Assembly (NCBI RefSeq): GCF_000297775.1
Contig: NZ_JH815519.1
Location: 83,073 to 147,072, forward strand
Direction of reading: 5' to 3'
Source: Sutterella wadsworthensis 2_1_59BFAA
GTDB taxonomy: Bacteria; Pseudomonadota; Gammaproteobacteria; Burkholderiales; Burkholderiaceae_F
Length of the DNA stretch: 64,000 nt
Shown: piece after piece, positions 34,622-57,761 of the stretch
Numbering within the stretch: the stretch's first letter is position 1
Layout of the letters: each line of letters begins with the position of its first letter
The notes under the pieces: generated by a model
The model's database searches: none
Told to the model about the DNA's origin: nothing
The model's input: only the letters and a program-made list of their open reading frames with translations
Program-made: the position numbers and the translations under genes

Positions 34622-35929
34622 GTGACGCAAGAAGAGAAGAAGAACACCGAAGCCGCCGCACCCGAAGCGCAGGAGCCCGCAGAGCAGAACGCAGGCACGA
34701 TGGCGGCGACCGCCCTGCCCCGGAATCAGAATGAGGCTCAGGATAAGGCTCAGCCCGAAGCGAAGGCTGAAGGCGCGCCCGACGAAAAACCGGAAGAAAA
34801 GGCGGGCGAAAAGCCGGCTGAAAAGCCCCGTCGCCGCCGTCGTTCGCTCACGCTCGTCGCGGGCGGCATGCTCGTCGTGCTCTGCGCGGCCATGGGGCTT
34901 CGCTGGGAGGCCGACCAGCGCGTCTTCGAGCGTGCGGTCGAGTCCGCCACGCCCGACACCGCCGTGCGCATCACGGTCGAGACGGGCGACTCCGCGCGCC
35001 GCGTAATGGAGCGCCTGCGGGAGGCGGGCCTTCAGGTGAAGGACTTCGACATGCGTCTGGCCGCACGCCTCGTGAAGGACCACAAGCTCTCGAGCATCCA
35101 CACGGGCACTTATGAGTTCAAGCCCGACCTCACGCCCGCAGGCATTCTCGAAACGCTCGCCAGGGGACCGATCGTCGACCAGTCGCTCAGGATTCCCGAC
35201 GGCGCGCCCGTCTGGGAGGTACTCGCCATCTTCAGGAACGCGACCGCGCTCAAGCAGACGGCCGCCTCGATGCCCGAGGCCGAGCTGCGCCGTGCGCTCG
35301 GCATCGACGCGGGCTCGCTCGAGGGATGGTTTGCGCCCGACACCTACCACTACACGTCGGGGAGCGCCGACCTTGCCGTCATGAAGCAGGCCGTCGCCAA
35401 GCAGAAGGCCCTTCTGGCCAAGGCCTGGGAGTCCCGCTCCGAGGCCGCTAAGGTGAAGACGCCCTATGAGGCGCTCACGCTCGCCTCCATCATCGAGAAG
35501 GAGACGGGCCTTGCCACTGATCGCCACCTCGTGAGCTCGGTCTTCAACAACCGCCTGAGCATCGGCATGCCGCTGCAGACCGACCCGACCGTCATCTACG
35601 GCCTCGGCGAGAAGTTCAGCGGCAACATCACCCGCAAGGATCTGCAGACGCCGACCCCTTACAATACGTACGTCATTCCGGCGCTTCCGCCCACGCCGAT
35701 CGCCGCGCCCACCTGGGCGTCGATCGAGGCTGCGGTCAATCCCGCCGACACCAGGTTCCTCTACTTCGTCTCGAAGGGCGACGGCTCGAGCCATTTCTCG
35801 CAGAGCCTCGCCGAACACAACCGCGCCGTCAGGCAGTTCATCCTGAACCGCCCGAAGACGCAGAAGAAGGCCAAGCCCAAGGAACCGCAACCTACGAAGG
35901 AAACAGCACGGTCAATAACCCCTGTCTGA
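34622..35929 (+). CDS. mltG: Endolytic murein transglycosylase MltG
   Basis: The protein of about 435 residues has a long Ala/Glu/Lys-rich cytoplasmic head, one membrane segment (LTLVAGGMLVVLCAAMGLRW) and the YceG/MltG domain. The catalytic Glu lies in TLASIIEKETG and the signature is VFNNRLSIGMPLQTDPTVIYG. It cuts nascent glycan strands in the periplasm. The GTG at 34622 is taken as start because a TAAAAT -10 element at about 34545 lies between it and the upstream ATG at 34523. The last few residues (after about SITPV) and the TGA stop come from the left end of the inserted IscB element. Confidence 0.9.
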   Translation: MTQEEKKNTEAAAPEAQEPAEQNAGTMAATALPRNQNEAQDKAQPEAKAEGAPDEKPEEKAGEKPAEKPRRRRRSLTLVAGGMLVVLCAAMGLRWEADQRVFERAVESATPDTAVRITVETGDSARRVMERLREAGLQVKDFDMRLAARLVKDHKLSSIHTGTYEFKPDLTPAGILETLARGPIVDQSLRIPDGAPVWEVLAIFRNATALKQTAASMPEAELRRALGIDAGSLEGWFAPDTYHYTSGSADLAVMKQAVAKQKALLAKAWESRSEAAKVKTPYEALTLASIIEKETGLATDRHLVSSVFNNRLSIGMPLQTDPTVIYGLGEKFSGNITRKDLQTPTPYNTYVIPALPPTPIAAPTWASIEAAVNPADTRFLYFVSKGDGSSHFSQSLAEHNRAVRQFILNRPKTQKKAKPKEPQPTKETARSITPV

Positions 35930-35938
35930 AGACAGAGG
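35919..35938 (+). repeat. IscB element end repeat, left copy
   Basis: cccctgtctgaagacagagg, identical to 37457-37476. The TGA inside it is the stop codon of mltG. Confidence 0.9.
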
Positions 35939-36180
35939 CTTGAAAGAGTCTTTATTGACTAGCCTCAGCGCCCCTCTTTCGAGAGGCGCTACGTTGGTTG
36001 GGAATGTACAGGCACCGTGGGATGTACATCCTAGTTCCACGCTCTGCGGCCTGTGATTAAAAGCTCCGAGAGGTAGGAGCGGTGTTGCAGGCACCAAACC
36101 CCTTCCAACATTGGCGAAGGATGTCAACCGGCCTTCGGGCCGTGTAAGCGGAGCCTGCGGGTATCCGCAAAGGAGATGCT
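35919..36180 (+). ncRNA. Predicted omega RNA of IscB
   Basis: The 240 bases between the element left end and iscB have no gene. They carry several hairpins, for example agcgcc/ggcgct at 35967-35990 and ggcc-ttcg-ggcc near 36132-36143. In IscB systems the omega RNA is read from just this place, with the guide at its 5' end taken from DNA flanking the left end. Here that would be about bases 35899-35918 of mltG. Exact limits are inferred. Confidence 0.65.
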
Positions 36181-55233: not shown

Positions 55234-56598
55234 TCAGGCGGGACGGGCGGTCTGTTCCGCCTGAACGTCCTGCGGCTCCTCGTCGATGGTGAAGACCTCG
55301 TCTAGGGGCTTCGCGAGCATTTCGGCGGACATGAAGCCGCGGTACCAGTCAAAGAGCATCCCTTCATCTCGGGACGACGAGGCGCGCTTGGGACTAGTGA
55401 GATGGTTGGTGCCGTCGACGAGAAGCGCCGTGCAGGCGTCCCTGAGGCTCTTGGCGGACGGATCGCACAGAAGCGCCCAGTCGCTGTGACTCTTGGGCTT
55501 CTCGCTCATGATCTCGACGCAGTAACCCTTTTCGGCGAGCCTGAGCAGAATGCGGCGGGCGGCCTGCGGGTAGCTGTCGACCTCGTCGGCGAGCGTCGTG
55601 ATGCCCACCGAGGTCTCGCCCTCGCGGCGATGGCGCCAGAGCGTCTTCAGGAGCGCGACGCCCGTAAGGAAGTCATTGCCGCGCTTGTAGCTGTCGGCGA
55701 AGCGCCCCGAAGTGAGAAGCGGGATCGTCGCCGTGATGGCTGCGCCGCCGAAGACGATGAGCCAGGAGACGTAGAACCAGAGCAGGAGCACGGGGAAGGC
55801 CACGAACGCGCCGTAGATCGACGTGAGCGTGCCCGCCGAGACGTAGTGCCCGAAGGCCTCGCGCACGGCGAGTCCCGCGAAGGAAGCGGAGACGCCGCCC
55901 ACGGCCGCGTGCGAAAGCTGCACGTGGCAGTTGGGCACGAACTTGTAGAGGAAGGTGTAGGAGGCGACCTGGATCGCAAACTGCAGAACGGCCATGCCCC
56001 ACTCGACCGACGTCGCGTCAACGCCCTCCGAGGCGGAGCGGATCGCCTGCGTCGAGACGGTGAGCGAGAAGGCGATCACCAGGGGCCCGAGCGTGATGAG
56101 CGCCCAGTAGAGCAGCGCCCTCTGTCCCCAGGGGCGCATGCGGCGCACCTGATAGATGCGGTTGACCGTCACGAAGAACTTGTCAATCAGGAGAAGCGCC
56201 GTCACGGCCAGACCCGCCAGACCGAAGATGCCGAGTCCCGAGGCGTGGTCCGTGAAGTTGCGCAGATACGTGACGATCGTCTCCGTGTACTGCTGCGGCA
56301 GCACGCCCGAGATGATCGCCTCCTCAAGCGCGTGGCGCGAGTCCGCGAAGCTCGGGAAGAGCGCAAAGGCCGACATCGCGACCGCGATGAGCGGAACGAG
56401 CGAAAGGAGCGTCGTGAGCGTCATCGAGGACGCCACCTCCTGAAGCTGAGTCTCGCGCATGCGGTCCATCGCAAAGCGGATGATCGTGCGCACGGCCTCG
56501 ATGCCGTGCTGCCGCCGAGCCCGCTTCACAAGCTCCGCACTCCTCGTTCCGGCCTCTCCCTCTGCATGGCCCTCGGAGGCCGTCTTCTCTTCCGACAT
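55234..56598 (-). CDS. yihY: YihY-family inner membrane protein
   Basis: The 454-residue protein has a YihY/UPF0761 membrane part with six segments (SSMTLTTLLSLVPLIAVAMS, IYGAFVAFPVLLLWFYVSWL, IVFGGAAITATIP). It is followed by a cytoplasmic winged-helix-like tail (TTLADEVDSYPQAARRILLR) common in betaproteobacterial members. The old label as RNase BN is wrong for the family; the function is unknown, perhaps lipid transport-related. The ATG at 56598 or the one at 56607 could be the start. Confidence 0.87.
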   Translation of the reverse strand: MSEEKTASEGHAEGEAGTRSAELVKRARRQHGIEAVRTIIRFAMDRMRETQLQEVASSMTLTTLLSLVPLIAVAMSAFALFPSFADSRHALEEAIISGVLPQQYTETIVTYLRNFTDHASGLGIFGLAGLAVTALLLIDKFFVTVNRIYQVRRMRPWGQRALLYWALITLGPLVIAFSLTVSTQAIRSASEGVDATSVEWGMAVLQFAIQVASYTFLYKFVPNCHVQLSHAAVGGVSASFAGLAVREAFGHYVSAGTLTSIYGAFVAFPVLLLWFYVSWLIVFGGAAITATIPLLTSGRFADSYKRGNDFLTGVALLKTLWRHRREGETSVGITTLADEVDSYPQAARRILLRLAEKGYCVEIMSEKPKSHSDWALLCDPSAKSLRDACTALLVDGTNHLTSPKRASSSRDEGMLFDWYRGFMSAEMLAKPLDEVFTIDEEPQDVQAEQTARPA

Positions 56599-56607
56599 CG
56601 TCTGCAT

Positions 56608-56858
56608 GCTATCTCTTCTTCTCCATGACGCCCGTCGTTGATGTCACGAGCTCTTGCGCTCATTGTACAGGCCGCCAACTCCCGCAGGCCCGCGCGGCCT
56701 CCGCGACACAAAAGAGCGGCAGTCGACGCGATCCTTCGCCCGAATGGTCGACAAATGATTTTCTCCTGCAACACATGGGCTTTGCCCGCACCATTCTCAG
56801 AAAACCCCAGGCTCTTCGCATCACGGGTCTTGAATTGCCGACAATTTGTAAACTTTGC
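56608..56858. other. Intergenic region between yihY and the RNA gene
   Basis: No gene supported. The part after about 56750 is AT-richer and leads into the RNA gene promoter. Overlapping short frames on both strands lack family features or ribosome binding sites. Confidence 0.35.
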
Positions 56859-56887
56859 TCGACAAGTCGCTAAAACTTGTGTATAGT
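56859..56887 (+). promoter_or_regulatory. Promoter of the orphan RNA gene
   Basis: TCGACA at 56859-56864 (5 of 6 to consensus) and TATAGT at 56882-56887 (5 of 6) are separated by exactly 17 bases, the best promoter seen in the core part of this window. It reads away from yihY, into a region without any gene. Confidence 0.75.
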
Positions 56888-56893
56888 TCACCC

Positions 56894-57037
56894 CTATCGA
56901 CGGACCGACTCTAAGCGGTTCGTCGTCTTTTCGGTCAGACGCGGCTCCTGTCAGGGGCGCCTGCGTCAGCGGCAGTAAGGCGCCGCTCCGAAAAAGGGGG
57001 AACGAAAAGGCCGGTTTTCGACGAAACCGGCCTTTTT
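56894..57037 (+). ncRNA. Orphan structured RNA gene of about 144 nt
   Basis: Between a near-consensus promoter and an intrinsic terminator lies a stretch without any reading frame but with three clear hairpins. Stem A is 56899-56907/56916-56924 (9 pairs, one G-U, 8-base loop). Stem B is 56938-56967 (gacgc/gcgtc, then ggc/gcc past a bulge). Stem C is 56968-56973/56982-56987 (agcggc/gccgct, 8-base loop). CCCCT near the 5' end can pair with AGGGG at 56995-56999, closing a multi-branch fold. It does not match tRNA, SRP RNA, tmRNA or RNase P features. Because the terminator comes before any gene, it is more likely a small RNA than a riboswitch. Confidence 0.65.
57005..57037 (+). terminator. Terminator of the orphan RNA gene
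   Basis: ggccggttt (57009-57017) pairs with aaaccggcc (57024-57032), with AAAA before and TTTTT after. Confidence 0.85.
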
Positions 57038-57060
57038 CATTTTGTACGCCGCGGACATGA

Positions 57061-57090
57061 AAAACGCCGCGGACCGCGGCGTTTTTTTTT
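57061..57090. terminator. Terminator downstream of pgsA
   Basis: aaaacgccgcgg pairs with ccgcggcgtttt across 57061-57085, with long A and T runs on the two sides, so it can act for the minus-strand pgsA and as a back-up for the RNA gene. Confidence 0.8.
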
Positions 57091-57131
57091 GATTTCCGGA
57101 TTCGCTTCCGGGTTCGTCTCGGGAGTCGTTC

Positions 57132-57761
57132 TCAGAGTGCGTCGGACGCGGGAGCCGTGAGAGCCTTGCGGGCGGCCATGAGGTAGACGTACATCGAATA
57201 GATGGTGAGCACGGCGGCGACGATGATGAGGACGCGGCCGAGGAAGGCGATGTTGAGCTCGCCGCTCAGGAGGCTCGTGCTAACGACGACGGGATCCCAC
57301 CAGAGGAGCATCGGGATGGCGGTCATCTGGGCAATGGTCTTGATCTTGCCGAACCAGTTGACCTTGACGGCGCCCGAGGCGCCGACCTTGGCCATCCACT
57401 CGCGCAGGGCGGAGACCGTGATCTCGCGGCCGATGATGACGAGGGCGACGAGCATGTCGCATCGGTCGAGGCCCACGAGGGCGACGAGCGCGGCGCTCAC
57501 GAGGAGCTTGTCGGCGACGGGATCGAGGAAGGCGCCCATGGGCGTGGCCCAGCCCTGATAGCGGCGGGCGAGGAAGCCGTCAAGCGCGTCGGTGATGGCG
57601 GCGATGACGAACATCAGCATGGCGGTCGCGTTCTTCGTCCCCATCGTCATCCACGTTTCGGGAAGATAGAAGATGCCGATGACGAGCGGAATCATCGCGA
57701 TGCGCATCCAGGTGAGGAGCATCGGGACGTTGAGCTTGAATGGGGGCTTGAGTTTGGGCAT
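57132..57761 (-). CDS. pgsA: CDP-diacylglycerol-glycerol-3-phosphate 3-phosphatidyltransferase
   Basis: The 209-residue membrane enzyme makes phosphatidylglycerol phosphate. The CDP-alcohol transferase motif D-x2-D-G-x2-A-R-x8-G-x3-D-x3-D is complete (DALDGFLARRYQGWATPMGA, then FLDPVADK). It lies 20 bases after uvrC, the common uvrC-pgsA order of proteobacteria, and ends before a terminator. Confidence 0.95.
   Translation of the reverse strand: MPKLKPPFKLNVPMLLTWMRIAMIPLVIGIFYLPETWMTMGTKNATAMLMFVIAAITDALDGFLARRYQGWATPMGAFLDPVADKLLVSAALVALVGLDRCDMLVALVIIGREITVSALREWMAKVGASGAVKVNWFGKIKTIAQMTAIPMLLWWDPVVVSTSLLSGELNIAFLGRVLIIVAAVLTIYSMYVYLMAARKALTAPASDAL

Follow-up and report, generated by a model that had tools for sequence, protein, structure and literature searches.

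When a stand-alone RNA keeps its hairpin loops unchanged on stems that vary freely, its usual mode of action is base pairing or the binding of a protein. Among the described bacterial systems, 6S RNA has as its hallmark a long helix that joins the 5′ and 3′ ends and has a central bubble, and RNAs of the CsrB/RsmZ type carry multiple GGA motifs in their hairpin loops. In the OxyS–fhlA system, hairpin loops are reported to meet a ribosome-binding site (PMC5793797).

The RNA described here lies in what we call the window, the whole stretch of 64,000 nucleotides of Sutterella wadsworthensis DNA that was analyzed. OxyS and this RNA are alike in being stand-alone and of roughly the same size, in combining hairpins with a Rho-independent terminator and in having a loop proposed to pair with a ribosome-binding site; they are unlike in that the RNA stretch has no OxyS match in Rfam, its proposed targets are other ones and its interaction is as yet a proposal. 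OxyS–fhlA is mechanistically the nearest system, by likeness of the proposed mechanism and not by membership. With the CsrB/RsmZ type the RNA shares several hairpins and exposed loops, but in the folds of three genomes the loops of hairpins 1–3 lack GGA. 6S RNA, likewise stand-alone and of similar size, was considered because none of the 12 genomes of the genus gave a 6S match; the window's fold, however, lacks the long 5′–3′ helix with its central bubble, and we rejected the identity as RF00013 matched neither the RNA stretch nor anything else in its own genome. The small RNA was found in only three of those 12 genomes. As an observation in its own right, 6S RNA (RF00013) went undetected at E ≤ 0.1 throughout three genera, our own (12/12 genomes), g16 (10/10) and g2 (5/5), and was present in 32 of 67 family genomes under stricter filters; its non-detection in the three genera would reflect loss or strong divergence.

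The preliminary description of the locus had been unable to assign the element to a known RNA class and had put it forward, as a structured RNA gene, as the best candidate for an undescribed element, and on both points we agree. Rfam 15 gave no match to the RNA stretch at the gathering score. At E up to 10 there were 26 matches, all below gathering and none to 6S, CsrB, SRP, tmRNA or RNase P, and the five alignments inspected rest mainly on two terminator-like hairpins. With nothing credible at either threshold, assignment to a known family was rejected. This absence from Rfam, together with compensating stem changes in two relatives, supports an undescribed gene, and no title among those listed by literature searches deals with a small RNA of Sutterella, which is no proof of absence. 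We regard the element as what appears to be a new, previously uncatalogued family of small RNAs, ordinary in kind; sequence comparison marks it as real, and the function given to it below is inferred. Elsewhere in the window, at 35911–36128 on the + strand, lies a HEARO RNA (RF02033), an HNH-endonuclease-associated RNA element, scoring 138.3 bits against a gathering score of 83.

A Predicted Transcription Unit between yihY and pgsA

The elements of the locus, in window coordinates, are as follows.

55234–56607, − strand: yihY (Pfam and NCBIfam)
56748–56754, + strand: distal TCGACAA box, present upstream of the RNA in G010 and G002 too
56839–56865, + strand: CGACAA-N15-CGACAA direct repeat with a 21-base period, the downstream copy overlapping the −35 hexamer
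56859–56864, + strand: −35 hexamer TCGACA (5/6)
56882–56887, + strand: −10 hexamer TATAGT (5/6); TATGAT in G010 and G002
56894–57041, + strand: small RNA of about 148 nt, both ends placed by promoter spacing and terminator
56898–56925, + strand: hairpin 1, with loop ACUCUAAG at 56908–56915, the proposed pairing loop
56938–56967, + strand: hairpin 2, with GUC in the loop in all three genomes
56968–56987, + strand: hairpin 3, with loop AGUAAGGC at 56974–56981
56996–57001, + strand: GGGGGA, invariant and unpaired in the window's fold
57004–57037, + strand: intrinsic terminator, 15 pairs followed by TTTTTCATTTT
57132–57761, − strand: pgsA (Pfam and NCBIfam)

The promoter TCGACA-17-TATAGT at 56859–56887 is the sole sigma-70-like site in 56600–57200 (shuffle mean 0.2), and the same interval contains three terminator-like sites against a shuffle mean of 0.7. 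The loop region of the terminator, TTCGACGA, is invariant in the three genomes that carry the RNA, namely the window's own (G000) and those of two relatives, G010 and G002. The CGACAA repeat at the promoter keeps identical spacing in all three and in its exact form occurs once in the window, which suggests a putative activator site; the single TCGACAA 7-mer is not rare, with 19 occurrences in the window against a shuffle mean of 9.6.

Most of the preliminary description is borne out here. It had placed the element between yihY and pgsA, and Pfam and NCBIfam confirm both neighbors; the promoter with 5/6 matches in each hexamer and a 17-base spacer, the three stable hairpins and the intrinsic terminator were all recovered. 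The roughly 144 bases said to be free of reading frames become about 148 bases in which no frame common to the three homologues was found. The only frame of the window copy starts with CTG and runs off the end of the stretch, the G010 copy has an ATG frame of 53 codons that also runs off, and G002 has nothing matching either one; a coding reading was rejected for want of a frame common to the three.

The stretch 56895–57043 folds at −72.4 kcal/mol (z = −5.04), and the two relatives give z scores of −6.42 and −3.85, the G010 stretch used for folding extending beyond the terminator; in each of the three genomes, none of 200 shuffles was as stable. A possible closing stem, also part of the earlier proposal, forms in the window's fold between 56928–56934 and 56988–56994 but is absent from the folds of G010 and G002, the latter having a different outer stem, and hence is not conserved. 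GGGGGA is partly paired in both relatives, with bases past the terminator in G010 and with the 5′ end in G002. Just past the RNA, at 57059–57087, lies a second, symmetric hairpin with T tracts on both strands, which the terminator search places on the + strand and which is probably the terminator of pgsA on the − strand.

Stems Change in Compensation while Loops Are Kept

Stretches around pgsA taken from the other 11 genomes of the genus revealed homologues in G010 and G002, whose PgsA proteins are the most similar (83 and 84% identity), in both cases between pgsA and yihY and on the strand opposite pgsA, so that the relative strand is the same in all three genomes. Each copy has the three hairpins and the terminator, with compensating substitutions in the stems, as the preliminary description had suggested looking for; no letter differs in the loops CUCUAAGC and CAGUAAGGCG, in GGGGGA or in the terminator loop.

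In an alignment built from sequence alone, without structure (A3), both sides changed in 7 of 23 pairs, a number reached by 3 of 500 shuffles, and controls in which the partners were slid by 1–3 columns gave 2 to 5. Of the cells in the same alignment, 80.3% were paired, in comparison with 29.7–44.9% with slid partners. The structure string for this test was drawn from the folds, a choice that to some extent tilts the result toward the structure, and the power of three sequences is low. In a table compiled by hand along each sequence's own fold, and hence fitted to structure, 14 of 23 pairs had double changes; 18 pairs vary, 13 of these 18 are paired in all three sequences and 5 are broken in at least one. 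Judged from these comparisons, the element has changed in the way that a structured RNA does. Two relatives have retained its shape and loops and differ in other letters, so that it looks like a real gene, and we consider it very likely that it is a genuine RNA gene.

A Narrow Distribution

Beyond the closest relatives the RNA was seldom seen. When 61 genomes were searched at the DNA level, the single match beyond its own genome was weak and partial and lay in G010. A covariance model, R1, identified the RNA in 3 of 67 family genomes and, among 399 genomes drawn evenly from the order, in its own genome only, and a strict two-gap pattern run against the GTDB collection returned the same two homologues. 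Comparison of the yihY–pgsA gap, proposed earlier for the Sutterellaceae, was informative in 3 of the 12 genus genomes: in eight of the other nine, about 5 kb downstream of pgsA contain neither yihY nor the RNA, and the G008 contig stops 273 bases past pgsA.

Scans with laxer filters added 5 matches in the 12 genus genomes and 6 in 31 other family genomes, all at 13.4–16.1 bits and E above 1. We judged them to be chance, having read the five genus matches, and not the six others, as alignments. The model scans depend on a coarse first pass and do not capture everything: a direct search found a match of 22.7 bits in G001 (L019) that the genus-wide scan had missed. We took this match as chance and not as a homologue, for it has neither hairpin 2 nor hairpin 3 and runs antisense within a frame of 404 codons (L019:1853-3067). 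In 800 kb of G003 and G007 that were searched directly there was one match (15.5 bits, E 0.63). Four stretches of viral contigs fitting a looser pattern were discarded as chance matches, since the pattern sites reached 5.8 bits over one loop only. The scans indicate that the RNA either is specific to a clade, at the given sensitivity, or has diverged beyond recognition elsewhere. At that sensitivity it appears narrowly distributed, in one Sutterella clade.

A GlnP-like Permease as Candidate Target

In all three genomes with the RNA, a GlnP-like permease gene has the exact complement of loop 1, GCTTAGAG, at its start site; neither of the two RNA-lacking congeners compared, G003 and G007 out of nine, has it there. 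The best NCBIfam match of the permease is glutamine permease GlnP, at 226 bits and so below the 303-bit cut-off. The leader site, GCTTAGAGGT, is ten bases long and identical in the three RNA-bearing genomes, and most of the 60 bases before it differ among them, the exceptions being ACAA just before the site and a CCCCC run about 40 bases upstream. At the same position G003 has ACTTAAAGGT and G007 an unrelated sequence. These comparisons make the permease mRNA a tentative target of the small RNA, a claim that we hold to be somewhat less probable than its opposite.

Upstream of the permease (L069, L071 and L073), the RNA-bearing genomes share a near-identical block, ATCTGTAAAATTCAGCAAATTTTGCCTTACACTTTTA, that is poorly kept in G003 and is probably a promoter or operator. 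The block contains GCCTTAC, which is complementary to loop 3 of the small RNA.

guaB and the Background of Chance Pairing

The second candidate is guaB, identified by a TIGR01302 match above the cut-off. We read 30 guaB leaders out of 66 genomes with a guaB match and found the exact 8-mer at the start in all three genomes with the RNA, in none of the nine genus genomes without it, among them G005 with a site one base off, and in 4 of 18 genomes outside the genus, these four having no credible match to the small RNA. Throughout the genus the guaB start region as a whole is conserved, and it is able to pair with the gene's own leader, so conservation of the site needs no small RNA. For this reason, and because the site also occurs without the RNA, guaB is weakened as a clean target, and we think it unlikely that its mRNA is one.

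The raw counts are uninformative. GCTTAGAG with an ATG within 16 bases gave 8 matches (7 sites) in G000, 6 in G010 and 18 in G002, and a reversed-pattern control 10, 12 and 10; the count is not above the control in G000 (8 versus 10) or G010 (6 versus 12) and therefore says nothing by itself. Inspected by eye, guaB and the permease alone among the own-genome sites lead convincing genes, and both sites recur in all three genomes. By chance, about one start region per genome would carry any given NNNNAGAG 8-mer, against two observed; the estimate comes from 265 start regions, picked out with a simple rule, and assumes 2300 genes for its scaling. The loop 1 duplexes at the permease and guaB (−11.8 to −17.2 kcal/mol) were stronger than those at all 264 background start regions, the two sites having been preselected for a perfect match. 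With loop 3, 180 to 259 of the 264 background regions paired as strongly as the two candidates or more so. The G run stands out mildly and for the permease only, with 10, 42 and 23 of 264 regions as strong or stronger in the window, G010 and G002, respectively. As the three homologues belong to one clade in which RNA and sites share one history, the association between them counts as a single event. On the comparative and background results together, we rate the permease a moderate lead and guaB a weak lead.

Proposed Mode of Action and Its Alternatives

The element has the sequence features of a trans-acting bacterial small RNA, that is, a promoter, a terminator, no conserved frame and no co-directional gene downstream, and its structure and loop motifs persist across species. 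Its action is probably by base pairing. We see about an even chance that it is a stand-alone, independently transcribed regulatory RNA of about 148 nt that pairs in trans through loop 1. Transcribed from its own promoter, such an RNA would use hairpin 1 to present CUCUAAGC for perfect pairing with GCUUAGAG at the permease ribosome-binding site, and possibly with guaB mRNA, and translation initiation would thereby be blocked. More speculatively, an activator at the tandem CGACAA boxes may switch the RNA on, perhaps under a nitrogen or purine condition. The fullest version, a clade-specific RNA that couples glutamine-type uptake to GMP synthesis through an 8-nt loop kissing both the permease and guaB sites under control of an activator at the CGACAA boxes, strikes us as improbable taken as a whole.

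The alternative that survives best, although we consider it unlikely, is that the small RNA binds a protein, for sequestration or as a scaffold, so that the invariant loops and GGGGGA are protein sites and not pairing seeds. The compact fold fits this, as do three invariant motifs, two with UAAG in common, that sit on freely varying stems, and a loop 3 that is invariant but suits neither candidate mRNA; the lack of GGA in the loops of hairpins 1–3 sets the RNA apart from CsrB/RsmZ, however, and none of the known classes named above appears among its 26 Rfam matches.

Loop 3 also bears on a second alternative, that the RNA does pair in trans, perhaps via loop 3 or GGGGGA, but that its targets include neither the permease nor guaB. 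Loop 3 (CAGUAAGGCG) is the longest invariant loop and a misfit to the candidate start regions. Against such targets, its exact complement CGCCTTACTG occurs, the RNA gene aside, once in G000 and twice each in G010 and G002, with no site common to the three genomes among the contexts listed. A loop 3 target through this exact complement was rejected for that reason, and pairing with other targets is likewise an unlikely reading.

The intergenic gap that contains the RNA is short, and the RNA is directed toward the 3′ end of pgsA, as a cis element would be, whether antisense to pgsA, part of its 3′ region or a leader to a co-directional gene. It ends, however, about 90 bases short of the pgsA stop codon, the next gene downstream is convergent in all three genomes with none co-directional just downstream, and in G010 a convergent 421-codon frame (L016:1434-2699), putatively a peptidase T, separates pgsA from an RNA that is nevertheless kept; a cis role is therefore very improbable. 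Equally improbable is a relic or chance cluster of hairpins without function, which the presence of the RNA in so few of the 67 family genomes would allow but which the letter-for-letter conservation of loops and promoter boxes over stems changing in compensation contradicts.

A covariance-supported RNA with a named candidate target offers a direct way into riboregulation in these Sutterella gut bacteria; even so, it is a further lineage-specific small RNA, and its kind is familiar.

The guaB Leader

Rfam gave no credible match at three guaB loci, the one sub-gathering match, to a miRNA, lying inside the gene. The guaB leaders of the 12 genus genomes (L102 1318-1500 and L103-L113) have a common layout of their own: CAATCTC or CAATCCC near the leader start, a variable middle and then 8–10 T that abut the ribosome-binding site. 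Folding, done for three of the genomes, allows CAATCTC to pair with GAGGTTG of the site, and the guaB leader looks like an undescribed attenuator or site-masking leader.
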